NCBI RefSeq assembly: GCF_012290005.1
Contig: NZ_JAAXMS010000006.1
Span: 310,001 to 374,000, forward strand
DNA length: 64,000 bases
From: Crateriforma spongiae
Lineage (GTDB): Bacteria > Planctomycetota > Planctomycetia > Pirellulales > Pirellulaceae
Direction of reading: 5' to 3'
Below, piece by piece: positions 7,390 to 26,011 of this stretch; positions within the stretch are counted from its first letter, which is position 1, and each line of letters begins with the position of its first letter. The translations under genes and the position numbers were made by a program. A model generated the notes under the pieces. The model did not search any database and had not been told where the DNA came from. It saw only the letters and a list, made by a program, of their open reading frames with translations.

Positions 7390-10300
7390 TCACCGGCCGT
7401 AAACCGCACCTTGGTAAAGATGAAACGTCCCGCCCTCGGGCAGTCCCACGCGAATGAAACGTCCACGGGTGTTCGGCGGCAATTCGATCATCCACTGGCT
7501 TTGTGGCTTCTGTGCTTGCCAGACTTCGCGGTAATTCTTTCCGTCGTCCGAAACCCAAACCGTCAGTCCATCGGCACGTTCTTGCAACCCGGTTCGATTC
7601 CGCAACCACACGTAACGAATCTCCGATGGCCGAGCCAATCGAATGGTCACGTGCGGGTTGTCGGTATCGTGATCACTGTGGAACGCAAAGTCGAAGGCTT
7701 CGCGCGGCACGTCGCTTAGGAACAAGTACGACTCGTCATTCCATCCGGAATTGCTGAATCGCCCGCCGAAGCGAATGTGGGCGTCACGTGAGATTTCTTG
7801 GAAACCGTCGTGTGACCGCAGTTTGACGTCTTTCTGTTGCAGTCCGATCCAACCGTCACGGTCGCGTGTGCCGCGGATCGATTTTTGTGACGACAGGTAA
7901 CTGATCAAGTCCAAGAATTCGATCGGGGCGATGGTCTTGATCAAACCTTCAGGCATCGAACTGGCCTTTTTGGGCTGAACAAAATCGATGTCGTCCTGCA
8001 GGATGTCGACTTGTTTTCCGTCGGCGATGCCGAGTGACAGAACTTCATCGGTTTCCTTCAACACAAAACCCGTTTGCACCACGCCGTCCAGCGTCAATAC
8101 GGTCACCGTTTCGAATCCTTTGGCGATCGTGTCATTGGGATGGATGATCGCCGTGATCAGTTGCTCCTTCGTCATTCGCGATCCAATGTCGCTCAAGTCG
8201 GGGCCAAACTTTTTGCCCAGGTCACCGATCATGTGACAGGCCGAACAAACTTGTTTGAAAACGCCTTCGCCACGTCGGCTGCTGCCGCCGCGTAAGCCGG
8301 CCAAGGTGCGGATGGCGTTGTGCCGATCGATTTCGGATGCATCTTCGTTTTCGGCGATCTCCAGCGGTGTCACCGCCGCACCGCCCGGTCCGGTCTTGCG
8401 TTGAAAGCGAACCAGATAGTCTTTCGCCGTTTGCGACGAATCGGCCAGAAAGTCGTCACGTTTTTGGGCCGGTTCCCAGACGGGCTGTAACGCATGCAGG
8501 GTGTGTTCCAGCGTGTAATCGATCCAGTAATCCATCGATCGCTCGGCCGCGCTTAGCGCGATTTCCAGCGACCGCATGGTGTGGATGAAGCTGAGACCAC
8601 GGACCGCTTCCAAGCGGACGCGCGGGTGCGGGTCGTCCATCGCACGTTCCAGGTATTCGATCAGCGCCGGCTGGCGATCGCGTTCGTTGGTCAGGACATG
8701 GATCGCCGCGGCGCGAGCCCGATAGTCGTCGCACGCCAAGATGCGATCGACCAATGCAGTGTCGACGGCGCGGAACGCTTCCTGTAACCACAGTCCTTCG
8801 CACCATTGTTGCGGGTCGTCGGTCGCGTTGACGTGACGCTTCACCGCCGCCAAGACTTCCGTTCGGTCACGATCCCACAGTTCGCGTCGGGCGCGATAAC
8901 GTGTGCGGGGTTCGTAAACGCTGAGCTGTTGGACTAGTTCGTCCACCGTTTTGTCGGCTTGCGTGATCGGCTGCAGCAACGGTTTGTTCTTATTGACCAA
9001 TCGATACACACGACCGTGTTTGTGGTCGCGGTTGGGGTCACGTTGTGAATACTGCATGTGACCGATCAATGCGTTGCACCAATCGCCAAACCAAACCGCA
9101 CCGTCGGGACCGATCTTCGGATCGACCGGACGAAAAATGATGTCGGTCGATGACAACAGGTCATCCACACGCCGGCCGTCGAATCCCGCGCCGTCGGATT
9201 CGTTTTGCAATTCGAACCGTGGCATGCCGTGCATGTTGATCACGCACGCATAGATGAATTGCCCCTGCATGTCATCGGGCAGGTGTCGCGACAGCAAAAA
9301 TTCGTTGCCCACCGCCGGTCGCATGCCTTCGTTGTCGAAGTTCGGCTCCAGTGTCCGTCGGGTGTTCACTTCGAATCCCGACAGCGGGCTGGTCCAGTGT
9401 TGTTTGGCGTTGGTGCCATCGCCGACCATGCCGTTGCCCCAGGGATCAAATACCAGGCACCATGGATTGCCATAACCGGGAGTGCGAAAGTGTTGAAAGC
9501 TCAGGCTGTGAGGATCCAACACATAGCATCCGGCGGTTCCTTTGTTTCGAAACGCTCCCCAAGGTGTTTCCAGGGTGGTCGACAAAGAGATGCCTTCCAG
9601 CATGTGGAGCCGTCCACCGTGGGACCATTCCCAAGCGCCGACCGTGTGGTGAGTGTCATCGGTCGCGATGCCATCGACGACGGTTTCGACCAGATCGGCG
9701 CGGTCGTCGCCGTCGGTGTCTTTTAGAAACAAGATTCGCGGTTCGTCGACGACCAGGACGCCGCCATTGTAAAACTCAAATCCCGTTGGACAGATCAGCT
9801 TGTCATAGAACGTGATGCACTTGTCCGCCCGGCCGTCGTTGTCGCTGTCTTCGAAAATCAACAAACGGTCGCTGGGACGCTCGGCACCCGGTTGCCATTG
9901 AGGGTAATTCGGCATACACGAAACCCACAAACGCCCCCGGTTATCGAAAGCAATCTGGTTCGGGTTTGCCAGTTCGGGAAATTCACGCTCCGATGCAAAC
10001 AGTTGGACCTCCATGCCGTCGGGGACCGTCATCATCTGGATCGACTGTTCCGGCGTCGGGTATTCCAGCACCTCCGGTTCGCGCAGCTTGCGAAAATTTT
10101 CATCTCGCGTGCCGAACATCGTCTCCGGGGTGAACAGGTCGCCGGTGTTCGAATCGTCGGGCTGTTCGGGCACGTCACGACCGGCGGCCAAGTCCCAGAT
10201 GTATTGATCGCGGACTTCGACGATCCCGCGGATCTTTTTGTATTCTCTCGGGAACGTTTCGGTGTCCCAGGTGCGGCGGCCGCCATAGACATACCAACCG

Positions 10301-11049
10301 TTGAGCATTCGATAGTCTTGCAAGTGAAACCAAGACTTATCGTTGACCCAGCGGCGGACGTCTTCGAATTTGGACATCCCGATTCCGACCGGATGGTTGT
10401 CGCCAAAGATCGCCGTGTCGATCAGTCGGCCGACCAAGCGATCGCCCGCTTCGTTGACGTGAACACCGTTGATCGTGAACTGAGCCCCGGCTTCCTTTTG
10501 GAACTCGGCCAGCGTGGGCGTGAAAAGGTCGACAAAGCCGTGTCCGTCGTCGTCGGCCAGTTGCCGAATCGCTTCGGTGTACGCGGCCAGATTGCGATTG
10601 TGTTGGACGCCATTGGGCTGCAGCGGGTTGCCGGTCGGCTCAAACGCGATCGGGCTGACCAAGATGAACGAGGGCTGCCGGCCGTCTTGGGTGAAACGTT
10701 CGGTTTGCTGTTTCAGATAATCGCGATAGTCGGCGACGAAAGCTTCCAAAGCCGCCGGATCGGTACCGGCGAACGATTCATTGAACCCGAAGAAGCACAG
10801 GAACGTCTGGGGGTCGAACACCTCCAGCGGGTCGTCGATTTTGGTGTAATTGCTGGGGCGTTGTTGGTTTCCGACTTCGTCGGCCGGCCAACCGAAATTG
10901 CGAAAGCGAATTTGTTTGTCGGGAAAACGCGTGTGCAACAGCGCTTCGAAATGCCCGTACTGGTTCATCCGCTCGGCCAGCGAATTGCCGACCGCGACGA
11001 CTCGTTCATTTTGGCGAATCGGCCAAACTACGGCGTCTTTTTTTTTTCC
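7390..11049 (-). CDS. SGNH - PVC-type beta-propeller - HEAT - cytochrome c - discoidin-like protein; downstream half of a frameshifted ThuA fusion
   Basis: About 1219 residues follow the frameshift site. In order: an SGNH-hydrolase-like domain ('VVAVGNSLAERM', 'FFGFNESF', 'INGVHVNEAGDR'); a planctomycete membrane-bound-dehydrogenase propeller (DUF7133) with Ca-binding-like 'DSDNDGRADK' and 'DTDGDDRADL'; HEAT-like repeats; a class I cytochrome c with heme site CSACH near residue 932; and a C-terminal discoidin-like domain. No ATG, GTG or TTG lies in frame between 11130 and the SGNH Ser codon; the first in-frame ATG comes after it. Translation should therefore enter from the ThuA frame by a -1 shift on the A10 run. 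The likely role is extracytoplasmic sugar oxidation or hydrolysis passing electrons to the heme; the substrate is unknown. If no shift occurs this half is not made. Confidence 0.8.
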   Translation of the reverse strand, partial: GKKKDAVVWPIRQNERVVAVGNSLAERMNQYGHFEALLHTRFPDKQIRFRNFGWPADEVGNQQRPSNYTKIDDPLEVFDPQTFLCFFGFNESFAGTDPAALEAFVADYRDYLKQQTERFTQDGRQPSFILVSPIAFEPTGNPLQPNGVQHNRNLAAYTEAIRQLADDDGHGFVDLFTPTLAEFQKEAGAQFTINGVHVNEAGDRLVGRLIDTAIFGDNHPVGIGMSKFEDVRRWVNDKSWFHLQDYRMLNGWYVYGGRRTWDTETFPREYKKIRGIVEVRDQYIWDLAAGRDVPEQPDDSNTGDLFTPETMFGTRDENFRKLREPEVLEYPTPEQSIQMMTVPDGMEVQLFASEREFPELANPNQIAFDNRGRLWVSCMPNYPQWQPGAERPSDRLLIFEDSDNDGRADKCITFYDKLICPTGFEFYNGGVLVVDEPRILFLKDTDGDDRADLVETVVDGIATDDTHHTVGAWEWSHGGRLHMLEGISLSTTLETPWGAFRNKGTAGCYVLDPHSLSFQHFRTPGYGNPWCLVFDPWGNGMVGDGTNAKQHWTSPLSGFEVNTRRTLEPNFDNEGMRPAVGNEFLLSRHLPDDMQGQFIYACVINMHGMPRFELQNESDGAGFDGRRVDDLLSSTDIIFRPVDPKIGPDGAVWFGDWCNALIGHMQYSQRDPNRDHKHGRVYRLVNKNKPLLQPITQADKTVDELVQQLSVYEPRTRYRARRELWDRDRTEVLAAVKRHVNATDDPQQWCEGLWLQEAFRAVDTALVDRILACDDYRARAAAIHVLTNERDRQPALIEYLERAMDDPHPRVRLEAVRGLSFIHTMRSLEIALSAAERSMDYWIDYTLEHTLHALQPVWEPAQKRDDFLADSSQTAKDYLVRFQRKTGPGGAAVTPLEIAENEDASEIDRHNAIRTLAGLRGGSSRRGEGVFKQVCSACHMIGDLGKKFGPDLSDIGSRMTKEQLITAIIHPNDTIAKGFETVTVLTLDGVVQTGFVLKETDEVLSLGIADGKQVDILQDDIDFVQPKKASSMPEGLIKTIAPIEFLDLISYLSSQKSIRGTRDRDGWIGLQQKDVKLRSHDGFQEISRDAHIRFGGRFSNSGWNDESYLFLSDVPREAFDFAFHSDHDTDNPHVTIRLARPSEIRYVWLRNRTGLQERADGLTVWVSDDGKNYREVWQAQKPQSQWMIELPPNTRGRFIRVGLPEGGTFHLYQGAVYGR

Positions 11050-12098
11050 GGCCGGTCGCGTGCTTCGAAGACGGGCGACCCTTTCGGATCGGGCATGGAG
11101 GGTGACCGGCCCAAGCCGAAATCGGCGGGCTGTAGGTCGGCGTTCTTCCAGTACCCTTCGGTACGAATGAAGCCATAGAAGCTGGGATAGAACGGATCGA
11201 CGAATGCGACATCGGCCGACGCGGGGACGTCCAGGCCTGTCAAATGATACGTGGCATTGACCACCAAGCGTCGCAGGTCTTCGTCCGCCAAGTCGATTGC
11301 CGCGCCGGCGGTGGTGCAGAACGACGTGCCCGTGCCGCCGTCGGGGGCGGTGTAGGTGTGCAGCCAAGCAAACGGTTGCATCGGAGCGTTCAGTTCGCCG
11401 TCGACGTTGACGGACTTGGGATCCAACGATTCGGTGACCGCACCGCGAAGCAACACGCGGTCGGCGTCGGTCAAGTGGGTGACGCCGTACACGTCACTGG
11501 GCACAAAAATTTCGCCGACGCCGTTTAAGATCGGATGGTCGGCATATTCTTTCTGGACGACGCCGCGGGCCCCTTGGACTTTGTGTTTGCCGTGGTGATT
11601 CACCCATTCTTCGCCCAAGACACGCAGTCCCCATTTGTCATAAGAAATGTCGCCGCCGAAGGATTGGTCGCCTTTGAATCCGTGTGTCGATGTTCGCAAA
11701 CCGATGATCGGTTTTCCGGCGTTCAAGTAGGCCGTCATGTGGGCGGCGTCGGCCGCCGACGGCGTACGGAATCGTGTGCCGACGATGATCAGGTCGGCAT
11801 CGTCCAGCGTTTCCCAGCCGCGGACGCCGGTGTGATTGTTCGGGTCGATGTAGGTGCCGTCCTCGGACATCGAAAACAAGACGGTGCAATGAAAGCCATG
11901 CTTTTGGCTCAGGATCTTGCCCAGCATCGGCATCGCTTCTTCGGACCGATATTCCTCATCACCGCTGATCAGGACGACGTGTTTGCCGTTGCCGTCGCCC
12001 GGTGGGGTGAACACCAGCCGATCGTCGGCGGCGAAAACGGGGGACACAAGGAACATCGCGGAGCAAAACGCGACGACGCGAGACAGAACCGAGGACAT
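11028..12098 (-). CDS. ThuA-domain protein; upstream half of the frameshifted fusion
   Basis: 356 residues in the zero frame. The start 'MSSVLSRVVAFCSAMFLVSPVFA' is a signal peptide. The ThuA-like fold, a class-I-glutaminase-like domain seen in trehalose-utilisation proteins, follows: 'KHVVLISGDEEYRSEEAMPM', 'DDADLIIVGTRFR', 'KPIIGLRTSTHGF' and 'TYTAPDGGTGTSFCTTAGAA'. In planctomycetes such domains occur in secreted carbohydrate-linked proteins. The zero frame stops at TAG just after the A10 run, but a -1 shift there continues into the SGNH/propeller/heme frame for a total of about 1569 residues. The ATG at 12098 was chosen because the longer frame upstream is not family-like. The gene diverges from the GH-sulfatase gene across 370 bases. 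Confidence 0.85.
   Translation of the reverse strand: MSSVLSRVVAFCSAMFLVSPVFAADDRLVFTPPGDGNGKHVVLISGDEEYRSEEAMPMLGKILSQKHGFHCTVLFSMSEDGTYIDPNNHTGVRGWETLDDADLIIVGTRFRTPSAADAAHMTAYLNAGKPIIGLRTSTHGFKGDQSFGGDISYDKWGLRVLGEEWVNHHGKHKVQGARGVVQKEYADHPILNGVGEIFVPSDVYGVTHLTDADRVLLRGAVTESLDPKSVNVDGELNAPMQPFAWLHTYTAPDGGTGTSFCTTAGAAIDLADEDLRRLVVNATYHLTGLDVPASADVAFVDPFYPSFYGFIRTEGYWKNADLQPADFGLGRSPSMPDPKGSPVFEARDRPEKKKTP
11038..11047 (-). promoter_or_regulatory. Run of ten A residues joining the ThuA and SGNH frames (slippage site)
   Basis: On the minus strand the sequence is CCGGAAAAAAAAAAGACG. The zero frame reads GAA AAA AAA AAG ACG CCG TAG; the -1 frame reads GGA AAA AAA AAA GAC GCC and stays open for about 1,200 codons. 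Such runs support ribosomal -1 shifting or polymerase slippage that adds one A. A one-base homopolymer error in the assembly is the main alternative. Confidence 0.65.
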
Positions 12099-12468
12099 GG
12101 ACGCTCTGTTGAAACAGGTGGGGCTTGGACGGGGTGGGGACAGGCTGGCCTGTCGAGAAGTGTCGCAGTATAGATCAAACCGACGCCGGGGTGGCGTTGC
12201 CGATGGTCCACCAGGTCTGGCCGAATGCGGCCCGCCCAGCCGTCGGTGATATCTGTTCAGTGGCGGCGGCGTGCGGCACGAGCGCCGGGGTCTCGTGGCT
12301 GGTGGGTGCCGCGACTCTGGCGGATCGCCGCGATGGAGGTGGCTTTGACTTTTTTGACCATGACCGCTGTGCGATCGTCGTATGTTGTTGCGCACAAGCC
12401 TGTCGCGTGAATGCATCCCACGTTGCATCGACGCCAGGTCCCCGCCATTGCCTTCCTTCCCACCTTTG
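12099..12468. other. Divergent intergenic region between the ThuA and glycosidase-sulfatase genes
   Basis: These 370 bases hold the promoters of two large divergent genes. On the minus strand TATACT (12172 to 12167) is a reasonable -10 about 60 bases before the ThuA start, without a clear -35. No operator-like repeat was recognised. No credible gene is seen. Confidence 0.5.
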
Positions 12469-15400
12469 ATGCTCCTTCGATTCATGTCCCCCCGAATTTG
12501 GTTGATCGCGTTTCTTGCCGTCTGGTCCGTTCCACTTGCCACTCCCGTGTTGTGTTCCGCGGCGGATCGGACGTCCGACGGCGATGGCCCGGTTGATCCC
12601 GTCTTCAATCGTGCGCCGCTTGCGGCCAAGCCGTACAGCGAATTGCCGCTCGGTTCGATCCAGCCACGTGGCTGGCTGCGCGATGAATTGCAGCGGATGG
12701 CCGATGGGATGACCGGTCACCTGGACCAGTGGTATCCCGAAGTCTGTGGCGATCGCAACGCGTGGCTGGGTGGCGACGGGGACACGTGGGAGCGTGGTCC
12801 GTACTGGATCGATGGTCTGTATCCCCTGGCCAAGTTGTTGGACGACCGTGACTTGGAAGCCAAGGCGATGCGGTGGATCGAATGGACGTTGGCCAACCAG
12901 CGTGAAAGCGGTCAGATCGGCCCCTACGGAATCAAGTCCGCCGATCGCACCGTACCGCCGCCACGCGGTGCGCAAGTGTTGAAGCCGGACGATTGGTGGC
13001 CGCGGATGGTGATGTTGAAGATCTTGCAGCAACACTACATGGCCACCGGCGATCCGCGAGTGGTCGAAAGCTTGACACGGTACTTTCGATTCCAGTTAAG
13101 CGAACTTCCCGAGCGACCGTTGCATGATCCCGACAATCCGGCCAGCGGATCATGGTGGGCCGCCCAACGTGGTGGCGACAATTTGATGGTCGTGTTGTGG
13201 TTGTACAACGTGACCGGCGATGCGTTCTTGTTGGAATTGGCCGATCTGATCCATCAGCAAACCGTCCCGGTGACGGATTGGTTTTCGCCGGGCGTGGACA
13301 ACATGATCCGTCGCCGCGGTGACCAGGGGGACGCGCTGCACTGCGTCAACTTGGCCCAGATGATGAAGACGCCGGTGATCCGTTGGCAGCAGGACCAAGA
13401 CCATCGTCACCTGGCTGCGGTGGCCAACGCGCTGGCCGACATACGCACGTTCCACGGACAACCGCATGGGCTGTACGGTGGCGACGAAGCGATGCATGGC
13501 GATGCACCGGATCGTGGCAGTGAGCTGTGCACGGCGGTGGAGATGATGTATTCGCTGGAAAAAATGTTTGCGATCACCGGCGATGTTTCATTCGGCGACC
13601 GTCTGGAAAAGATCGCGTTCAACGCCTTGCCAACTCAGTGCACCGACGACCATCACGCAAGGCAATACTTCCAACAAACCAATCAGGTGCAGTGCACGTT
13701 CGGGTCGCGTGACTTTTTCAACGACCACGGCGACCGAGTCGTTTATGGGCTGTTGAGTGGTTATCCCTGTTGTACTTGTAATCTGCACCAGGGCTGGCCC
13801 AAGTTTGCACAGCATTTGTGGATGGCATCGGCCGACGGCGGGTTGGCTGCGGTCGCCTATGCACCGTCGGTGGTGACCACTCGGGTCGATGGCAATCGAA
13901 CGGTGACGCTTTCGATGGACACGGGGTACCCGTTCCACTCGGACATCGCAATCGATGTCAGTGTCGACGGCGGTGCGGTGTCATTTCCGCTGCACGTTCG
14001 GATTCCCGCGTGGGCCGAAGGTGCGCAGGTCCGCGTCAATGACGGAGCGATGCAATCGGTGGACGCCGGCACGATGCACGTGCTTGCGCGACGCTGGGAA
14101 TCGGGTGACCGTGTGGAATTGCGTTTCCCCATGCCCCTGCGCAGTACCACTTGGTTTGCGCGATCCAAGGCGATCGAACGCGGGCCGTTGGTGTTCGCCC
14201 TGGATGTCCCGGCCCGGTGGGATGACGTCATTCAGCCGCGTCCCGATGGGGTTCCCGAAACGGCGATGCACCGCGGCTATCGCGAAGCCCACCCGAAGCA
14301 GCGGTGGAATTACGCGTTGCCCGGCGCGGTTGTGAACCAGCCGGACGCCAATGTCCAGGTCGACGTCGCCGATTCGATCCCCGACAACCCGTGGACCAGC
14401 GAAACCGCCCCGGTGCGTTTGACGACCGTGGGGATCCGATTGCCCGATTGGACGGTTCATCGCAACAGCGCCGCGGTGCCACCGCTGAGCCCGGTGGATT
14501 TGCCCAAGGATTTCCAGCGTGACGAAATCACGTTGATCCCCTACGGCGCGACAACGCTGCGTGTGACCGAATTCCCGTGGGTTCGTAATGCGGATGCTTC
14601 GCTGGCGTTCACGCCGGATCAGTGGAAGTTTTCCCGTGCCTTTGCGTCGTACACGCACCCCAACAACACGGCCGATGCGGTGCGGATGCCGATCAAGCCG
14701 GTTTCTTCGTCTGACAAGTCGCGGCCGCGTTGGACCAGTTGGCCGCAACGTGGCCAGGATCAATGGATCGAAATTCGTTTTGATGGTCCCAGGGAATTGC
14801 GATCCTTGGGCGTCTATTTTTATGACGATCAACGCGGGATCCGTCCGCCGGGCGATTGGACCGTGCAAACTGACGACGGTGATGGCTGGAAAGACGTCAC
14901 GTTGCCGGCTGGTACGACGTACAAGGCCAAGATTGACCAGTACAACGACGTCGACTTGGGCGGCATCGTGACCAGGGCGGTTCGTTTGTCATTGCGGCCA
15001 TCCGGTACAGACAAATGCATCGGAGTGATGGACGTTCGCGTCGACAGCCGTCCGGCCGACACGTCATCGGCGTCACAAGAAGATTCGCAGGTCGGGGTGG
15101 CGTCGACCGACCCGCGTCCGAACTTTGTGTTCTTGATCACCGACGACATCAGTCCGGATGACCTGAGTATTTACGGCAACGGTTTTGTGTCGACGCCGAA
15201 CCTGAAGCGGCTGGCCGATCGTGGGCTGGTGTTTGACAACGCCTATTTGACGATCAGTTCTTGTTCGCCCAGTCGATGCAGCATGATCACCGGTCGGTAT
15301 CCGCATAATACCGGCGCTTCGGAGTTGCACCTGACGTTGCCGGAGGATCAAACCACGTTCGTCCAACTGCTGCGTGATGCCGGTTACCACACGATGATCT

Positions 15401-16476
15401 CGGGAAAGAACCACATGGCACCGCCGCAACAGTTGGGGTTCGTTGAATCCAGCGATGCCAAGCCCGCCGGGGCGGAAAAGTGGGTTCAGCACTTGCGGGA
15501 CCGTCCCGCCGATCGGCCGTTCTTCGCTTGGTTTGCTTCGCATGATGCCCACCGGGCGTTCGAGATCACCGACGACGCACCGGTTTACGATCCCGAGCAG
15601 GTGAAGGTGCCGCCGATGATGTACGACGGACCGGAAACGCGGGCCGAGCTGGCCGGTTTTTATCACGAAGTCAGTCGGACGGATCACTTCTTGGGCAAGG
15701 TCATGGATGAACTGCAGCGTCAGGGCATCACGGATAACACCTACGTGGTTTATTGCAGCGACAACGGTCGGCCGTTTCCCCGGTGCAAGACGTATCTGTA
15801 TGACAGTGGCATTCAAACCCCGTTGGTCGTCGCGGGCCCGGGGGTTGCCGTCGGGCGGACCGAATCGTTGGTCAGCTCGATTGACTATGCGGGGACGTTT
15901 TTGGAATTGGCGGGGCTGGAACATCCGGACACCGTTCAGGGCGTCAGTCTGGTGGACGTGTTCCAGGATCCGGACGCTCGCGTGCGAGACGTGGCGTTTG
16001 CAGAGCGAAACTGGCACGTTTACCAGAACCACCAGCGTGCCGTTCGTGCGGGCGACTGGTTGTACATTTGGAACGCGTGGCCGGACCGATACAGCGTCGC
16101 CGGCGAAAGTTCGTCGTACGTGTTTGCCGCGGTCCGTGAACTTTGGCAGGCGGCCGAGCGCGGCAAGCTGAATGACGCGCAGGCCTTGCTGACTCTGCCC
16201 CAACAGCCGGCGGAGATGCTGTTCAACGTCCGCAATGATCCCTACCAATTCGACAACTTGGCGGACGAAGCACGCTATGCGGAAACCCTGGCCACGATGC
16301 GAGGGCTGTTTCGTGATTGGGAACGCGAGACCGGCGACTGTGTGCCGCAGCAGCCCACGCCCGACCGGCAATCGCTGCACAAAGGCGGCGGTGGCAACAC
16401 CAAACGCGGCCAACAGCCGGGGCAGGCCAACGGTGCGACGGAGATCAATGCGGCGGGCCCGGTATGGATCGACTGA
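12469..16476 (+). CDS. Fusion of GH127/DUF1680-type glycosidase, discoidin-like domain and sulfatase
   Basis: 1335 residues, exported (signal peptide about 1-31, 'LIAFLAVWSVPLATPVLCSAA'). Residues about 45-660 are a DUF1680/beta-L-arabinofuranosidase-type barrel. 'GSELCTAVEMMYSLE' (near 350) and 'GYPCCTCNLHQGW' (near 432) carry the Glu, Cys and Cys-Cys set that binds zinc and supplies the Cys nucleophile in GH127. Residues about 705-845 resemble a discoidin (F5/8C) domain. From about 883 a type I sulfatase begins: 'RPNFVFLITDDISPDD', then CSPSRCSMITG with Cys932 as the predicted formylglycine. A low-complexity Gly/Gln tail ends the protein. The start could also be the ATG at 12484. Both activities on one chain suggest a sulfated, arabinose-type side chain, by inference. 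Confidence 0.9.
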   Translation: MLLRFMSPRIWLIAFLAVWSVPLATPVLCSAADRTSDGDGPVDPVFNRAPLAAKPYSELPLGSIQPRGWLRDELQRMADGMTGHLDQWYPEVCGDRNAWLGGDGDTWERGPYWIDGLYPLAKLLDDRDLEAKAMRWIEWTLANQRESGQIGPYGIKSADRTVPPPRGAQVLKPDDWWPRMVMLKILQQHYMATGDPRVVESLTRYFRFQLSELPERPLHDPDNPASGSWWAAQRGGDNLMVVLWLYNVTGDAFLLELADLIHQQTVPVTDWFSPGVDNMIRRRGDQGDALHCVNLAQMMKTPVIRWQQDQDHRHLAAVANALADIRTFHGQPHGLYGGDEAMHGDAPDRGSELCTAVEMMYSLEKMFAITGDVSFGDRLEKIAFNALPTQCTDDHHARQYFQQTNQVQCTFGSRDFFNDHGDRVVYGLLSGYPCCTCNLHQGWPKFAQHLWMASADGGLAAVAYAPSVVTTRVDGNRTVTLSMDTGYPFHSDIAIDVSVDGGAVSFPLHVRIPAWAEGAQVRVNDGAMQSVDAGTMHVLARRWESGDRVELRFPMPLRSTTWFARSKAIERGPLVFALDVPARWDDVIQPRPDGVPETAMHRGYREAHPKQRWNYALPGAVVNQPDANVQVDVADSIPDNPWTSETAPVRLTTVGIRLPDWTVHRNSAAVPPLSPVDLPKDFQRDEITLIPYGATTLRVTEFPWVRNADASLAFTPDQWKFSRAFASYTHPNNTADAVRMPIKPVSSSDKSRPRWTSWPQRGQDQWIEIRFDGPRELRSLGVYFYDDQRGIRPPGDWTVQTDDGDGWKDVTLPAGTTYKAKIDQYNDVDLGGIVTRAVRLSLRPSGTDKCIGVMDVRVDSRPADTSSASQEDSQVGVASTDPRPNFVFLITDDISPDDLSIYGNGFVSTPNLKRLADRGLVFDNAYLTISSCSPSRCSMITGRYPHNTGASELHLTLPEDQTTFVQLLRDAGYHTMISGKNHMAPPQQLGFVESSDAKPAGAEKWVQHLRDRPADRPFFAWFASHDAHRAFEITDDAPVYDPEQVKVPPMMYDGPETRAELAGFYHEVSRTDHFLGKVMDELQRQGITDNTYVVYCSDNGRPFPRCKTYLYDSGIQTPLVVAGPGVAVGRTESLVSSIDYAGTFLELAGLEHPDTVQGVSLVDVFQDPDARVRDVAFAERNWHVYQNHQRAVRAGDWLYIWNAWPDRYSVAGESSSYVFAAVRELWQAAERGKLNDAQALLTLPQQPAEMLFNVRNDPYQFDNLADEARYAETLATMRGLFRDWERETGDCVPQQPTPDRQSLHKGGGGNTKRGQQPGQANGATEINAAGPVWID

Positions 16477-16591: not shown

Positions 16592-17419
16592 ATGCTCTGT
16601 TCGTCACGTCATTCATGGATTCGATGCATCGTTCCCGCACTGGTCTTGCCACTGGTGGTTTTGCCGGCCTTGGCCGTGGCGGCTGACGGTCGCGCCGAGG
16701 TCGATGCGGTGGAAACGCCTCAGGTGGCCGATGCGGAACTCACAATCCAGGCGACCGTCGTGTCCGATTTGCCGCACGGCGTGGTGCTGGCCCAGGGCGG
16801 TCAACAGAACGGGTATGCCCTGGGGTTTGATTACGGCCGTCCGGTCTTTTCGATTCGCCGCGACGGCAGGGTGACGGAGGTGGCCGGTCGCCAGGTGGTC
16901 ATCGGCCGCGTGGATCTGACGATCAACTGGGACGCCGAAAACGTGACGATTCAGGTCTTGGGTGGCGAGAAGGTTCAGGCGAAGTCGCCCGGTTTGCTGT
17001 CTCGCCAGCCCGGCGAACCGCTCAGCATCGGCCGCGACCGTGGCACCGCGGTCGGCAGCGACTGGGATCCCCGGGAATTCCGCGGCAAGGTGGTCTCGTG
17101 GGACGTCATGGTAGGGAAGGTGGCAGGGGAGCAGGTCGACGGGGGACAGGAAGAGGAGAAGGTGGCAGGGGAGCAGTTCGACGGGGGACAGGAAGACGGG
17201 GGACAGGAAGACGGGGGACAGGAAGACGGGGGACAGGAGGCGATGGAGGAATCGGCCGAGGAGTCAGGATCCGGAAACCCGTCTCCTGAGGACCCGTCTG
17301 CTGAGGACCCATCTGCTGAGGACCCGTCTGCTGAGGACCCGTCTGCTGAGGACCCGTCTGCTGAGGACCCGTCTGCTGAGGACCCGTCTGCTGAGGACCC
17401 GTCTCCTGAGAACCCGTGA
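16592..17419 (+). CDS. Secreted LamG-like protein with acidic pentapeptide repeats
   Basis: 275 residues. A signal peptide (about 1-31, ending 'PALAVAADG') precedes a beta-rich domain of about 130 residues: 'VVLAQGGQQNGYALGFDYG', 'GRDRGTAVGSDWDP', 'FRGKVVSWDVMV'. It resembles the concanavalin/LamG-like domain often found at the C-terminus of planctomycete sulfatases. The rest is repetitive and acidic: GGQED units, then SPEDP, seven SAEDP and SPENP, ending at the stop. It lies 115 bases after the glycosidase-sulfatase on the same strand, so it could be a detached carbohydrate-binding partner for that enzyme; this is inference. The tail may act as a flexible stalk. Confidence 0.7.
   Translation: MLCSSRHSWIRCIVPALVLPLVVLPALAVAADGRAEVDAVETPQVADAELTIQATVVSDLPHGVVLAQGGQQNGYALGFDYGRPVFSIRRDGRVTEVAGRQVVIGRVDLTINWDAENVTIQVLGGEKVQAKSPGLLSRQPGEPLSIGRDRGTAVGSDWDPREFRGKVVSWDVMVGKVAGEQVDGGQEEEKVAGEQFDGGQEDGGQEDGGQEDGGQEAMEESAEESGSGNPSPEDPSAEDPSAEDPSAEDPSAEDPSAEDPSAEDPSAEDPSPENP
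17115..17239 (+). repeat. In-frame tandem repeat, 15-base units
   Basis: A unit of about 42 bases beginning GTGGCAGGGGAGCAG occurs twice, then GACGGGGGACAGGAA is repeated four times back to back (17180-17239). An earlier single copy is at 17138-17152. It encodes DGGQE repeats. Confidence 0.9.
17281..17416 (+). repeat. In-frame tandem repeat, nine 15-base units
   Basis: GTCTGCTGAGGACCC is repeated with only point differences: one SPEDP unit, seven SAEDP units, one SPENP unit. Copies are nearly identical at the DNA level, which points to recent expansion by slippage. Copy number probably varies between strains. Confidence 0.93.
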
Positions 17420-17832: not shown

Positions 17833-20800
17833 ATGGCAACGACCAGCAAGCGACGCCTGGAACCGACCGAAATCCGCAGGTTTGGCACCGGCCTTGGAAG
17901 CTTCGAACTGCCAGATTTGACGGCCCTTCAAACCGCCTCGTATGCGGATTTCTTGCAGGAGGAAGTGGAGCCGCAGAAGCGAAAGGATTTTGGTCTAGAA
18001 AGTGTGCTTCGCGAAATCTTTCCGATCGAAAGCTACGACGGAAATACGACGCTGGAGTACCTGTACTACGAACTGGGCAAGCCCCGCTACACCAGTCAGG
18101 AATGTCGCCAGTTGCGACTGACCTACGGCCGGCCGCTGCGGATTTGGCTGCGGCTGAATCGCGAGGAACCGCACGAGGAAGAGGTCTACCTGGGCGACCT
18201 GCCGATCATGATGGGTGGCGGTGAATTCATCATCAACGGTGCCGAGCGAGTCGTCGTCAGCCAGTTGCACCGCAGCCCCGGTGTCGACTTTGTCTTGGAG
18301 CAAGACACGACGACCGACCGCAAGTTGCCCAGTTGCCGCGTGATCCCCGAGCGTGGTTCGTGGATCGAAGTCAACGTGACCAAGAAGGATTCGTTGACCG
18401 TCCGGATCGACCAGAGCGGTAAGTTCGCGGCGACCACGTTGCTGCGTGCGATGGACCCGCGTTTGTCGACCGACGCAGACCTGCTGAACGCATTCTACGA
18501 AACCTACACCGAGAAGCTGGACAGCAGTTCGGCCGAAAAGATCGAGGGCCGCATCGCCGTCGACGACATCGTGTACCCCCGTGGTCACGAACGTGCCGGT
18601 GAAATCTTTGTCGAAGCCGGTCACCGGATCAGCAAGGACGTTGCCGAAAAGATCGTCACCGCGGAGGTGAAGTCGGTCGAATTGATGAATGCCCCCAAGG
18701 TGCCGTTGATCTTCAACACCTTGGGTGAAGACAACACCGCCAGCCACGAAGAAGCGTTGCTGCGGATCTACCAGCGTCTGCGTCCGGGGAACCCGCCGCA
18801 ACTGGAAAAGGCCAAGACGCTGTTCGATGAAAAGTTCTACGACAGCAACCGTTATCGCTTGGGCAAGGTCGGTCGCTTCCGCTTGAATCGCAAGCTGGAT
18901 TTGGGCGTCGCCGAGTCGGAAATGACGCTGCGTCCGGACGACATGATCGCAGCGATACGCTACCTGATCGACTTGTTCGATCCGGACACCGGTGCGGAGA
19001 TCGATGACATTGACCACTTGGGCAACCGTCGTCTGCGAACGATCGACGAATTGGCCTGCGAAGAACTGCGCAAGGGCTTCCTGAAGCTGCGCCGGACCGT
19101 CCAGGAACGGATGAGCGTCAAGGATGCCCAGGACATGACCCCGCGTTCGCTGATCAATCCGAAGAGCGTTTCGGCGGCGATCGATTACTTCTTCGGTCGT
19201 GGCGAACTTTCCCAGGTCGTCGACCAGACCAACCCGTTGTCACAGCTGACTCACGAACGACGTTTGTCGGCGTTGGGTCCGGGCGGTTTGAACCGGAAAC
19301 GTGCGGGCTTCGAAGTCCGGGACGTCCACATTTCTCACTACGGTCGAATTTGTCCGATTGAAACGCCGGAAGGCACGAACATCGGTCTGATCAGTTCGTT
19401 GGCGATCTTCGCCGGCGTCGATGATTACGGTTTCTTGGTCACGCCCTATCGCAAGGTCGCCGAAGGGAAGGTCACCGACGACGTCGTTTGGCTGCGTGCC
19501 GACGAAGAAAGCGAGTCTTACGTCGCTCCGGCTGATACCGAGGTCAAGGACGGCGCGTTGGTGCCGGGGCCGAACATGATCGCCCGCTTCCGCAGCGACT
19601 TTGAAATTGTGCAGCCGACTCAGGTCCACTACATGGACGTCGCCCCGGCCCAGATGGTCGGTGTTTCGGCCGGTCTGATTCCTTTCCTGGAACACGACGA
19701 CGCGAACCGCGCGTTGATGGGGTCGAACATGCAGCGGCAAGCCGTGCCGCTGTTGGTCGCCGAACCCCCGATCGTCGGCACCGGGATGGAGCGCGAAGTC
19801 GCCAAGAACAGTTCGATGGTCATCCGTGCTCGGCGAGCCGGGAAGGTGACCCGCGCCGATGCGACCCGAATCGAAATCGGCAGCGACCACTACGAGCTGA
19901 AGAAATACCAGGGTCTGAACGAGCGGACCTGCCAAAACCAGAAGCCGCTGGTCACGGTCGGTGACAAGGTCGAAAAGGGCCAAATCATCGCCGACGGTGC
20001 CGCCACGCGGAACGGCGAATTGGCGCTTGGCCGAAACGTCTTGGTCGGGTTCATGTCTTTCGAAGGCTTCAATTACGAAGACGCGATCATCATCAGCGAA
20101 GAACTGGTTCGCAACGACACGTACACGTCGATCCACATCGAAGACTTCGACGTGGAGATTCGCGAAACCAAGCTGGGTCGCGAAGAATTCACTCGCGATA
20201 TTCCCAACGTTTCCGAAAAAGCGTTGGCCGCGTTGGACGAAAGTGGCATCGTTCAGGTCGGAACCTATGTGAAGCCGGGTGACATCCTGGTCGGCAAGGT
20301 TTCACCGAAGTCGAAGACGGAATTGACGCCGGAAGAAAAACTGTTGCACGCGATCTTTGGTCGTGCCGGTGAAGACGTGAAGAACGATTCGCTGGAAGTC
20401 CCCTCGGGGATCGAAGGGATCGTCATCGACACCCAGAAGTTCTCGCGTCGTATGAGTCTGTCGGACGAAGAACGCAAGGCGTTCGAGCGTGAGCTGAAGG
20501 AGACCGAAACGACGGGCAACGCGGAAATCGCCAGCACCTTCGAATCGTTCGTTCGCGACCTTGAAGAAGCGGCCGGCAAAAAGCTGAAGGACACCACCGG
20601 GACCCCGCTGGCCGACGGCCAAGATCCCAAGTTCGTCGCCGAACGGGCCAACGTGTTCCGCATCGACCACGTCATGGACCAAGTCGAAGACGAGGAAAAG
20701 AAGCAAGCCGTCCACCAGGTTTACAAAAACCAGTGGGGGAACGTCGAAAACGCGCTGGATAACCGCGACCGCAAGCTGAACAGCATGAAGCGGGGGGATG

Positions 20801-21552
20801 AACTTCGCAGCGGCGTGTTGCAGATGGTCAAGGTTTACATCGCGACCAAGCGTTGCATCAGCGTCGGCGACAAGATGGCCGGTCGTCACGGGAACAAGGG
20901 TGTGATCGCCAAAATCTTGCCGATCGAAGACATGCCCTTCCTGCCCGACGGCACGCCGATCCAAATCATGTTGAACCCGCTGGGCGTTCCCAGCCGGATG
21001 AACGTGGGTCAGATTTTGGAAACCCACTTGGGCTGGGCCGGTGCCAAGATGGGCTTCCAAGCGATCACGCCGGTGTTCGACGGTGCCAGCGAAGAAGACA
21101 TCAACAAGGTGTTGGCCGACGCCGAATTGCCCGCTCACGGTAAGGTTCGACTGCGTGACGGTCGCACCGGTGAACCGATGGAGCAGGAAACCACGGTGGG
21201 TTACATCTACATGTTGAAGCTGCACCACTTGGTCGACGACAAGGTTCACGCACGTTCCACGGGCCCGTATTCGTTGATCACCCAGCAACCGCTGGGCGGC
21301 AAGGCTCGCTTCGGCGGCCAACGTTTCGGGGAAATGGAAGTCTGGGCACTGGAAGCTTACGGTGCCGCTTACATCCTGCAGGAACTGTTGACGGTGAAGT
21401 CCGACGACGTCGAAGGTCGTACGAAGATCTACGAATCGATGGTCAAGGGCGAAAACACGTTGGAAGCCGGCACGCCCGCCAGCTTTGACGTGTTGACCAA
21501 TGAAATCCGCGGCCTGGCGTTGAACATGCAGCTGGAGAAACGCCCGATCTGA
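17833..21552 (+). CDS. rpoB: DNA-directed RNA polymerase subunit beta
   Basis: The catalytic beta subunit, 1239 residues. Landmarks: 'RSPGVDFV' in the N-terminal lobes; the rifampicin-pocket region '[20 protein letters not shown]' followed by '[20 protein letters not shown]'; '[16 protein letters not shown]'; 'GYNYEDAI'-type segment as '[12 protein letters not shown]'; '[13 protein letters not shown]'; and the C-terminal '[20 protein letters not shown]'. It forms the RNA polymerase core with the downstream rpoC product. The start ATG follows CCACCCACT without a strong ribosome site, normal for planctomycetes. The E. coli pocket residues F514 and M515 are both Val here, and S509 and Q510 are Gly and Glu. 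Confidence 0.98.
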
Positions 21553-21661: not shown

Positions 21662-24600
21662 ATGAGCATCGGCGAAACCAGCAATTACGATCGCATCAAC
21701 GATTACGCCAGCGTTCGGATCTCGCTTGCCCGTCCCCAGGACATCAAAAGTTGGTCGTTCGGCGAAGTCAAAAAGCCGGAAACGATCAACTACCGGACTT
21801 ATCGTCCGGAAAAAGACGGACTGTTTTGCGAACGGATTTTCGGACCTGAAAAGGACTGGGAATGCGCCTGCGGTAAATACCGTGGGATGAAATACAAGGG
21901 CATGATCTGTGATCGTTGTGGCGTGAAAGTCACACACAGCCGTGTCCGCCGTAAGCGAATGGGCCACATCGAATTGGCCGCTCCGGTCGTGCACATTTGG
22001 TTCTTCAAAGCCATGCCGTCGCGATTGGGCAACCTGTTGGCGATGAAGACCAGTTCGCTGGAAAAGGTCATCTACTTCCAAGATTACGTCGTGATCGACA
22101 AGGGATCGACGGACCTGGAAGAACAGCAGCTGTTGACCGAAGAGGAATACCGCGCCGCGCGGACGCAGTACGGACCCGGTTCGTTCGAAGCCGACATGGG
22201 TGCCGAAGCGGTCCGCAAGCTGTTGAACAAGTTGAATTTGGTCGAACTGTCCGAGCAGTTGCGCAAAGAGCTGGATGAGACCGGCAGCAAGCAAAAGAAA
22301 AAGGACTTGATCAACCGGCTGAAGATCGTTGAATCGATCCGTGACAGCGACAACCGTCCGGAATGGATGGTGCTGGACGTGATCCCCGTGATCCCGCCGG
22401 ATCTGCGTCCGCTGGTCTTGTTGGACAGTGGCAACTTCGCCACCAGCGATTTGAATGACCTGTACCGCCGGATCATCAACCGAAACAACCGGCTGCGCAA
22501 GCTGGTCGATCTGAACGCGCCGGAAGTCATCATTCGCAACGAAAAGCGGATGTTGCAGCAGTCCGTCGATGCGTTGTTCGACAACAACCGCTGCAAGCGT
22601 CCGGTGTTGGGTTCGTCCAATCGCCCGCTGAAATCCTTGACCGACATGATCAAGGGGAAACAAGGTCGATTCCGAGAAAACCTGTTGGGCAAGCGTGTCG
22701 ATTACTCGGCACGTAGCGTGATCGTGGTCGGTCCGCGTTTGAAGCTGCACCAGTGTGGTTTGCCCAAAAAGATCGCGCTGGAACTGTACCAGCCGTTCAT
22801 CATCCGTCGCCTGAAGGAACTGGGCCACGCCGACACGATCAAGTCGGCCAAGAAGATGCTGGAACGGAAGGATGAAGAGGTCTGGGATATCCTGGAACAA
22901 GTCATCACCAACCACCCCGTGTTGCTGAACCGGGCACCGACGCTTCACCGGATGGGTATCCAAGCGTTCGAACCGACCTTGGTCGAAGGCAACGCGATCC
23001 ACTTGCACCCGTTGGTTTGCAAAGGTTTCAACGCCGACTTCGACGGTGACCAGATGGCGGTCCACTTGCCGCTTTCGATCGAAGCCCAGGTGGAAGCCCA
23101 CACGTTGATGATGTCGACCAACAACGTGTTCGCGCCGTCCAACGGTAAGCCGATCATGAGTCCGTCGCAGGACATCGTCATGGGTTGCTATTACGCGACC
23201 TGTGAATTGCCCGGTCGTCCCGGCGAAGGCATGGTGTTCGGGACGTTCGAAGAAGTCGAAATGGCTTTGGCCCAGGGCAAGGTGGAACTGCATACGAAGA
23301 TCAAGATGCGGTTGCCCAAGTACCAACGTCTGAAAACTGAAGACGACAGCGCCAAATACGGTGCGGTTATTGAAACCACGCCGGGCCGCGTTCGCTTCAA
23401 CGAAATGCTGCCCAAGGGCATGGACTTCTACAACAAGGCCATGCGAAGCGGTGATTTGGCCGAATCGATCAGTGATTGTTACCAACGGTTGGGGCGTCGC
23501 GCGACGATCCACTTGTTGGACGACATGATGCAGATGGGCTTCCGCGAATCGACCCGCAGCGGTTTGTCCTTCGCGACCGACGACTTGGTGACCCCCGAAA
23601 CCAAGCAGGACTACATCAAGTCCGCGGAAAAGGAGGTCATGAAGTACAAGAAGGCCTATGACCGCGGTCAAATGACCGGCAAGGAACGTTACAACCAGGT
23701 CTTGGACGCTTGGACCAACGCCCGCGAAGCCATCACCAAGGACATGATGGACGCGATGGAAAACGACATCCGCGAAGGCGGTTGGTACATCAACCCGGTG
23801 TACCTGATGTCACACTCCGGTGCTCGTGGTGGTATCGCTCAGATTCGACAGTTGGCCGGGATGCGTGGTCTGATGGCCAAGCCCACCGGTGAAATCATCG
23901 AAACGCCCATTAAGGCGAACTTCCGTGAAGGCCTGTCGGTGCTGGAATACTTCAGTTCCACCCACGGTGCCCGAAAGGGTCTGGCCGATACCGCGCTGAA
24001 GACCGCCGACAGTGGTTACCTGACTCGGAAATTGGCCGACGTCGCGCAGAACGTCGTCATCACGATGGAAGACTGTGGCACCACCCAAGGGATCACCAAG
24101 GGTGTGGTGTACCGCGGCGAAAAGGTCGAAGTCCGCTTGGCCGATTCGATTAACGGTCGCGTCAGCCTGCAGTCGATCGTCAACCCGGTGACCGACGAAG
24201 TCATCGTGGCCGAAGGCGAAATGATCACTCCGGTCATTGCACGCAAGATCGAAGCGATGGGATTGGAAAAGATCCAAGTCCGGTCGCCCATGTGCTGCGA
24301 TGCTCCGCTGGGGGTCTGTCGCCGCTGCTACGGCATGGACATGTCCACCGGTGCGATGGTCGAAGAAGGCATGGCCGTCGGTATCATCGCCGCCCAGTCG
24401 ATCGGTGAACCCGGTACTCAGCTGACCATGCGGACGTTCCACATCGGTGGTTCGGTGTCCAAACAGGTCGAAGAATCCGACATCAAGTCGAAGAAGGCCG
24501 GGAAGATTCGTTTGACCCGGATGCGAAGCGTCACCAACGCCAATGGCCGCGACATCGCGTTGACGCGAAACGGCGAAATCATGTTGGTCGATGACCGCGA

Positions 24601-26011
24601 TCGTGAAATCGAATCGTACGAAGTCCCGCTCGGGTCGACCTTGATGGTCCAGGACGGCGATTCCGTCACGGCTGGTCAAATCTTGTGCGAATGGAACCCG
24701 TATGCGATTCCGATTTTGTCAGAAACGACCGGGAAGATTCGTTTCGAGGACGTCGTCGATGGCGAAACCGCGCGGACCGAACGCGAAGCGTCCGGTAACG
24801 AACGGGTGATGATCATTGACCACAAAGGTGACCTGCACCCGCAGATCGTCATCGAAGACGAAGACGGCAAGCCGCTGGATGTCCAGTACCTGCCGGAGCG
24901 TGCGTCGATCAGCGTTAAGGAAGGTGCGGAAGTCACCCCCGGTACGGTCCTGGCCGAAATGCCGCGTGAAGGCGGTGGTGTCCACGACATCACCGGTGGT
25001 CTGCCTCGGGTCACCGAAATCTTCGAAGCTCGTAAGCCCAAGGATCCGGCCGTGATCGCCGAGGTCGATGGCGAGGTCGAGATTTTGACCGAACGCAAAC
25101 GCGGCAAGCGGACGATCATCGTTCGCAGCGAATCCGGGATCGAACGTGAGCACTTGGTGCCGCACGGGAAGCACTTCCTGGTGCACAGCGGCGACATCGT
25201 CAAAGCCGGACAGGCACTGGTCGATGGCCCGTTGGTCCCGCACGACATCCTACGTGTCAGTGGCGAGGAAGCCGTGCAGCAATATTTGTTGCACGAAATC
25301 CAGCAGGTGTACCAATCGCAGCGTGTGGAAATCAACGATAAGCACGCCGAAATCATCATCGCGCGAATGCTGCGGAAGGTGAAGATCGAAACCAGCGGCG
25401 ACACCAACCTGTTGCCCGGCTTGGTCATGGACCGGTTCCAGTTCCGTCAAGCAAACCAGGAACTTTCCGGTCGCATCAAGATCAAGGATCCCGGCGACAG
25501 CGATTTCACCGAAGGTCAGATCATCCCGAAGGATTTGTTGGAACAAACCAACGCCGAAATCGAAGCCTTGGGCGGCACACCCGCCAAGGGCAAGCGGCCC
25601 AAGAGTGCGACCGCATCGACTCAGTTGCTGGGGATCACCAAGGCGGCGGTTCAGTCCAACAGTTTCATCAGTGCTGCGTCGTTCCAAGAAACCACCAAGG
25701 TGCTGACCGAGGCCGCGTTGGCCGGAAAGGTCGACCGTCTGGTGGGTCTGAAGGAAAACGTGATTTTGGGTCACCTGATTCCGGCCGGTACTGGTTTCCG
25801 CGTCTTCCAGGAATCCGAGGTGAACTATCGCCGCGAAGCTCTGGAGGAACTGGCCAACGCCCCGGCACAGATGATGGAAGAAAGCTTCCCGCTGCTTAGC
25901 GAGGGCGCCGACGCGTCATCGGCCGCCGAAGGTGCAACGCCACAGCCCGCACCCGGCGAATTGGGTTCGACCGGCGAGACGCTGGACAGCCACAGCGGCG
26001 GACAAGACTGA
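21662..26011 (+). CDS. rpoC: DNA-directed RNA polymerase subunit beta'
   Basis: 1449 residues. The N-terminal zinc finger ('CACGKYRG' and 'ICDRCGVKV') comes first. Then come the rudder and lid region and the active-site loop '[15 protein letters not shown]', whose three Asp residues hold the catalytic magnesium. The bridge helix and trigger loop region includes '[22 protein letters not shown]' in shortened form, followed by the second zinc site ('[14 protein letters not shown]'). The C-terminus ends in an acidic, Ala/Ser-rich tail beyond the usual family end. It is 109 bases downstream of rpoB and shares its transcript, which ends at the terminator after it. Confidence 0.98.

Follow-up and report, generated by a model that had tools for sequence, protein, structure and literature searches.

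A run of ten adenines between two open frames

We analysed a 64,000-nucleotide stretch of the Crateriforma spongiae genome (the window; contig NZ_JAAXMS010000006.1, positions 310,001 to 374,000), in which the minus strand carries a ThuA gene that stops directly behind a run of ten adenines (A10) and a much longer frame, one base apart from the ThuA frame, that runs on from it. At the junction the ThuA frame ends ...DRP GAA AAA AAA AAG ACG CCG TAG, and the downstream frame encodes an SGNH hydrolase (PF13472), a DUF7133/TIGR02604 propeller, HEAT repeats, a CxxCH heme domain (TIGR02603) and an F5/8 type C domain, scoring 171.8 bits against TIGR02604 (cut-off 122.2) and 105.2 bits against TIGR02603 (cut-off 68.15). 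The features are collected in Table 1. Judged from the sequence comparisons described below, the A10 junction is real and probably a functional recoding site; its type is known, its setting new.

An earlier note on this DNA had claimed that the zero frame ends just behind ten adenines, that the frame one base off continues for about 1219 codons, and that no ATG, GTG or TTG lies in that frame between position 11130 and the SGNH serine codon. All three claims hold, the count being 1215 codons before the stop. The downstream frame has none of these start codons from TTG 11367 to ATG 10968, by which point the SGNH serine codon (10983) has already been passed, and only rarer start-like codons such as ATT 11019 fall within the gap. 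TTG 11367 itself was rejected as a start for the downstream frame, as approximately 110 residues of ThuA sequence would be read out of frame. By coordinate arithmetic from ATG 12098, the short product has 356 residues, and a product translated from an A11 transcript would have 1569; A11 or A8 would be needed to bring the downstream half into frame.

Table 1 Features of the A10 junction, in positions of the window
Feature	Position	Strand	Remarks
A10 run, proposed RNA-polymerase slippage site	11038..11047	-	Zero frame GAA AAA AAA AAG; T10 on + strand
Short product, ThuA (PF06283), 356 aa from ATG 12098	11028..12098	-	N-terminal signal-like sequence, end ...PEKKKTP (stop); start and signal sequence assigned by eye
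TAG, stop of templated (A10) frame	11028..11030	-	Third codon past run
TGA, third-frame stop (A9/A12 transcripts)	11006..11008	-	Tenth codon past run
Downstream frame, 1215 codons + stop	7390..11037	-	Stop-free from A run to 7390

Both halves of the gene are conserved in a sister species

The same-genus comparison was made with one other species (the sister), with one assembly per species. The sister is 94.6% identical with the window across 5.3 kb and has A10 at the equivalent place, with one G missing before the run; its gene is hence also off frame, but with a different offset, and it needs A9 or A12 (one A fewer or two more) to enter the long frame. Either the absence of a G or a substitution combined with the loss of one A accounts for the difference between the two species; a change in tract length alone does not. 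In both, the unused frames stop at the third and tenth codons behind the run.

The ratios of non-synonymous to synonymous substitution rates (dN/dS) between window and sister were 0.120 for ThuA (346 codons) and 0.060 for the downstream half (1216 codons), and the downstream half showed zero indels and zero premature stops over these 1216 codons. These data show that both halves of the gene are under purifying selection. When the same regions were compared across pairs, the window pair gave 0.131 (ThuA) and 0.078 (downstream), and the intact fused control pairs gave 0.025 and 0.041 (L077/L078) and 0.065 and 0.069 (L027/L028); of the six pairs run, one was saturated at synonymous sites and gave no value, and two had dS near or above 1 and were uninformative.

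ThuA–SGNH fusions outside the genus

A search for ThuA in 241 genomes of the family (threshold E <= 1e-80) gave matches in 100 genomes, both genus genomes included, at 102 places; of the 100 that lie outside the genus, 68 were inspected. The SGNH-propeller half directly follows ThuA in 19 of these 68, each time as a single in-frame open reading frame, and no single-base run of at least six was found in the linker stretch of these 19 fused loci. The fusion is thus the adjacent-module form seen outside the window genus; the named contigs L006 and L017, duplicates of two of the 19 loci, have it as well. At the remaining 49 places the stretch examined showed no downstream partner and, viewed from the other side, 19 of 21 matches to the downstream protein had no ThuA match on theirs.

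A10 runs in dnaX and PfaA-like genes

Runs of A10 or longer are rare in the 6.87-Mb window genome (six, three of them inside long sense frames), and the sister genome has five, likewise with three inside long sense frames. The same three genes hold the coding runs in both genomes, namely the ThuA gene, dnaX (TIGR02397, 428.6 bits; cut-off 250) and a PfaA-like polyketide synthase/polyunsaturated fatty acid (PKS/PUFA) synthase gene, the best match of which is TIGR02813 PfaA at 454.5 bits, under the cut-off of 1010. At dnaX, the textbook slippage gene, and at the PfaA-like gene both genomes read A10 in frame.

Among the dnaX genes of the family (matched in 219 genomes), the 30 best-scoring loci, those of the window genus among them, all carry exactly A10, and each of the other two frames meets a stop within ten codons. 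Among 20 further dnaX loci, chosen partly for short open frames, 16 had A9–A11, L177 had no run and L165–L167 lay at contig ends. A9 was in frame in the more distant L174, L175, L176 and L178; off-frame dnaX runs were A9 in genomes G152 and G159 and A11 in G026. The PfaA-like gene of G152 likewise has A9 off frame, and together these cases suggest homopolymer error in some assemblies. The off-frame A9 and A11 runs at L160, L163, L182 and L168 (dnaX or PfaA-like; G159, G152 and G026) may be either assembly errors or real. At one dnaX locus with A10, L164, every frame is closed within 16 codons.

The PfaA-like gene was present in 20 of 239 genomes. A run of A9–A11 lies between the acyl carrier protein (ACP) and ketoreductase (KR) modules at 19 of the 20 loci, with A10 at 17 and no run at L199; both other frames are closed within ten codons in 19/19, and two loci are off frame (L182 with A9 and L197 with A10). 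Across the PKS/PUFA-synthase genes, ACP and KR halves off frame at A10 were observed at L197 (G210), L204/L229 (G166), L278 (G167) and L308 (G168).

Coding-like A10 runs in 18 family genomes fall into four gene classes

The survey of runs of A10 or longer covered 18 of the 241 family genomes (the two genus genomes, a first set of eight and a second set of eight, with five extra stretches added) and yielded 72 distinct runs. A run was taken as coding-like if the A strand was open for at least 150 codons before it and at least 100 after it, and classes were assigned by tblastn with references taken from the two genus genomes and the first set of eight. By this rule 44 of the 72 runs were coding-like, and 44/44 belonged to four gene classes: dnaX (18 runs, one per genome, 18/18 in frame), the PKS/PUFA ACP–KR linker (nine runs, three off frame), an aminotransferase–thioesterase linker (four runs, none off frame; for example L230, with PP-binding and Aminotran_3 before the run and Thioesterase after it) and secreted ThuA/DUF1080–heme-propeller proteins (13 runs in 12 genes, nine of the 13 off frame). 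Both unused frames were closed within ten codons in 41 of the 44 and within 15 in all of them, against a background of 5.1% (both other frames stopping within ten codons at 467 of 9222 codon positions, counted in window genes only). For the second set alone the figures were 19/22 and 22/22, and the 13 coding-like runs of that set that were new at selection all fell into the four classes.

Overall, 12 coding-like runs were off frame, and 11 of these require one additional A. Off-frame runs numbered 0/18 in dnaX and 9/13 in the ThuA/DUF1080 class (Fisher P = 3.5e-5, shared ancestry ignored), or 0/16 and 7/11 without G204 and G206, where off-frame sites were known at selection (P = 3.7e-4, with the same disregard of ancestry). 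Single-contig genomes with off-frame A10 sites include G170 (ThuA, A10, NPCBM-propeller), G007 (DUF1080, A10, heme-GSDH) and G166 (PKS ACP, A10, KR), and one gene of G167 (L305/L306) has two A10 sites between DUF1080, ThuA and NPCBM-propeller modules, both in frame. In the ThuA–NPCBM family, A9 or A10 was found at the linker in ten of the 30 best-scoring loci, with three off frame. Of 13 DUF1080–cytochrome loci only that of G007 had A10 (off frame); two were fused without a run, two had no run either but had their modules in different frames and are perhaps separate genes, and eight gave no downstream match.

Two runs narrowly missed the coding rule and are open in frame: L286 (G167), with 103 open codons ahead of the run and 281 behind it, and L291 (G162), with 205 and 62. 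The in-frame stretches, 388 and 271 codons long, gave no Pfam match and may be genes or chance; if either is a gene, coding A10 exists outside the four classes. A third candidate, L063 (180 and 97), was rejected as one gene, since its two open frames are distinct and a stop falls at the run. As a strand control, six runs were coding-like on the T strand, but all six were also coding-like on the A strand, and none is independent. As a control of run length, the two genus genomes have nine and ten exact A9 runs; none falls within a sense frame that is open for 250 codons or more, and with L107/L123, L117, L110 and L114 inside sense open frames of 203–239 codons A9 offers no good coding control. 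Of the 15 runs of at least A9 in G000, five have a counterpart of identical length at the orthologous site in G001 (three A10 and two A9).

Proposed mechanism and alternative explanations

On this evidence, we think it likely that the A10 is a programmed RNA-polymerase slippage (transcriptional-realignment) site in the linker between modules, from which both ThuA alone and the fusion would be made. RNA polymerase would produce transcripts with varying numbers of A at the run; templated A10 transcripts, and those with A9 or A12, would stop three or ten codons past it and give an exported ThuA of approximately 356 residues, and transcripts with A11 (or A8) would let translation read on through the downstream half into an exported ThuA–SGNH–propeller–cytochrome fusion of approximately 1569 residues, such that slippage would determine how much ThuA is free and how much is tethered. 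We infer the transcript heterogeneity, and the production and export of both proteins, from the sequence. ThuA and DUF1080 would act as sugar modules and the propeller as their partner, in the manner of a heme dehydrogenase, and the choice would be between release of the sugar-acting module and its tethering to that partner. Two features by which programmed transcriptional realignment is recognized, a homopolymer of at least nine at the frame transition and close stops in the frames that do not give the long product, are present at the junction; a third, conservation of the run and of both frames, was seen within the genus only (2/2 species). Polymerase slippage would explain the differing offsets of the two species, the closed alternative frames and the signal held in common with dnaX.

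Recoding at A10 is apparently recurrent across the family. We also lean, with somewhat less confidence, towards a broader view in which A10 is a portable optional-fusion element in the linkers of dnaX, PKS/PUFA synthases and ThuA/DUF1080–heme-propeller proteins, with slippage releasing shorter proteins or adding distal modules. The templated frame would then set the default product, long for dnaX and mostly short for the ThuA/DUF1080 enzymes, and the G167 gene with two A10 sites could yield three products.

Several points weigh against this interpretation. At the ThuA–SGNH orthologue, A10 was observed in no genus other than that of the window (2/2 species), and the paralogous fusions L256 and L264 of the window genome are fused without a run. 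The sister needs one A fewer or two more, unlike the 11 other off-frame cases, and the dN/dS values of the window pair are somewhat above those of both informative controls, although far from neutral. The conserved length of the A10 was rejected as sole proof, because at approximately 95% identity a run could persist by chance. Because the surveyed genomes are related, neither the counts nor the P-values are independent. Nor was the second set chosen blind: nine of its 22 coding-like runs were already known. Finally, a 22-nt hairpin (TTTGGC-CGATTC-GCCAAA) lies behind the run, with z = -2.06 when folded alone (6/200 shuffles fold as well), and would fit some contribution of programmed -1 ribosomal frameshifting, in the style of Escherichia coli dnaX, to making the fusion. 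The zero frame GAA AAA AAA AAG does contain the slippery heptamer A_AAA_AAG (X_XXY_YYZ), and a shift equal to -1 would serve 11 of the 12 off-frame A10 genes. We nevertheless regard ribosomal shifting as unlikely and favour polymerase slippage, because the sister has the same A10 with a different offset, such that a -1 shift would not make its fusion and the direction of shift is not conserved, and because both alternative frames, beyond the -1 frame alone, are closed in the A10 genes of the family. The hairpin was not taken to be a conserved stimulatory signal; longer downstream stretches folded no better than shuffles (z = -1.16, -0.52 and +0.45), and it is missing from the predicted fold of the sister, which is different (z = -1.32).

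Phase variation, in which the tract would change length during DNA replication and turn cells ON or OFF, would suit a homopolymer in the gene of an exported-looking protein and two species off frame by different offsets. It appears improbable given that the 30 best-scoring dnaX loci and 17/20 PfaA-like loci have exactly A10, that dnaX is in frame in all 18 surveyed genomes, and that a simple length change of the tract does not account for the difference between window and sister. A sequencing or assembly error in a truly intact frame is less probable still: homopolymers are error-prone, and the off-frame A9 and A11 runs of dnaX (G152, G159 and G026) and the A9 of PfaA (G152) may illustrate this, but both genus genomes are in frame at their dnaX and PfaA-like A10 sites, off-frame A10 junctions turn up repeatedly in single-contig genomes that read the A10 of dnaX in frame, and error should not spare dnaX (0/18) yet affect the secreted fusions (9/13). 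Least probable of all, and in our opinion barely credible, is a real inactivating frameshift that left the downstream half as a pseudogene or as a protein made from its own internal start. The zero frame does stop directly behind the run, but 1216 codons without a premature stop or indel between species, at a dN/dS of 0.060, weigh against a decaying gene, and the gap in start codons extends past the SGNH serine. A c-type heme domain needs a signal sequence for export, and an internal start is disfavoured because its product would have none.

Set against the claims of the earlier note, its proposal of a short ThuA and a fusion of approximately 1569 residues made through slippage is the best-supported reading of the sequence. 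As to the type of slippage, its polymerase alternative is favoured and its ribosomal one is weakened, as the latter would not serve the sister gene. The rival that it named, a one-base error or inactivating deletion, fits poorly with a sister that is also off frame and with selection on both halves. Its suggestion that homologues might hold either a conserved A run or an intact fused gene is answered both ways, the A10 being kept in the sister species and the 19 adjacent-module loci elsewhere being fused in frame without a run.

Relation to known systems

Slippage at poly-A has been described for dnaX, for insertion sequence elements and for genes involved in secretion, as well as in endosymbionts whose genes are frameshifted (PMC1088944, PMC4256274, PMC3711429, PMC5009743). 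Reported rates are about 50% at the A9 of Thermus dnaX (PMC1088944), about 25% at the A11 of tssM1 (PMC4256274), and 12–50% corrected transcripts for endosymbiont poly-A genes, with up to six extra bases at runs of nine (PMC5009743); for the window gene they serve as the range to be expected. The Thermus thermophilus dnaX gene resembles it in its poly-A run, the near stops in other frames and the short and long products (PMC1088944, PMC5009743), but there the templated frame gives the long product and here the short one, in a different gene and an exported-looking protein. Citrobacter rodentium tssM1 and the two-ORF (open reading frame) dnaX genes with ten adenines reported with GeneTack (PMC3711429) are alike in that the long product arises via slippage with a stop soon after the run (PMC4256274, PMC3711429). 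They differ from the window gene in that the latter encodes a ThuA–SGNH–heme-propeller fusion, has relatives with an intact fusion and shares its genome with A10 runs in other genes. E. coli dnaX has the A_AAA_AAG heptamer in common with the window gene, but at the latter we found no conserved stimulatory structure, and the sister would need another shift. The downstream half resembles PVC-type heme-binding CxxCH proteins (TIGR02604/TIGR02603), exceeding both cut-offs, whereas the window gene adds an N-terminal ThuA via the A10 junction.

ThuA is linked to 3-keto sugars. A 3-ketotrehalose hydrolase and an endo-xanthanase/lichenase are among the DUF1080 proteins characterized so far (PMC9007349). 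We found no open-licence paper on A10 slippage in this planctomycete family, judging by titles and the beginnings of abstracts, and the main text of PMC3711429 contains 'ThuA' and 'Rhodopirellula' zero times. If the proposal is true, large-genome bacteria would possess a recurrent device that sets the share of a sugar-acting enzyme tethered to a heme module, and the same device would decide the extent of a megasynthase extension. Genes of the family now read as broken would be real, and polishing or gene calling that 'corrects' A10 sites would hide working genes.

Neighbouring genes

Divergent from the ThuA gene, the plus strand of the window encodes a GH127-type glycosidase fused to a sulfatase (12382-16476), followed by an open reading frame (16592-17419) without a Pfam match, the C-terminal third of which consists of short GGQED and SAEDP-type repeats. 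Further on lie rpoB (17833-21552) and rpoC (21662-26011), also on the plus strand and approximately 7–15 kb from the A10 run, which are worth remarking because they encode the polymerase whose slippage is proposed.

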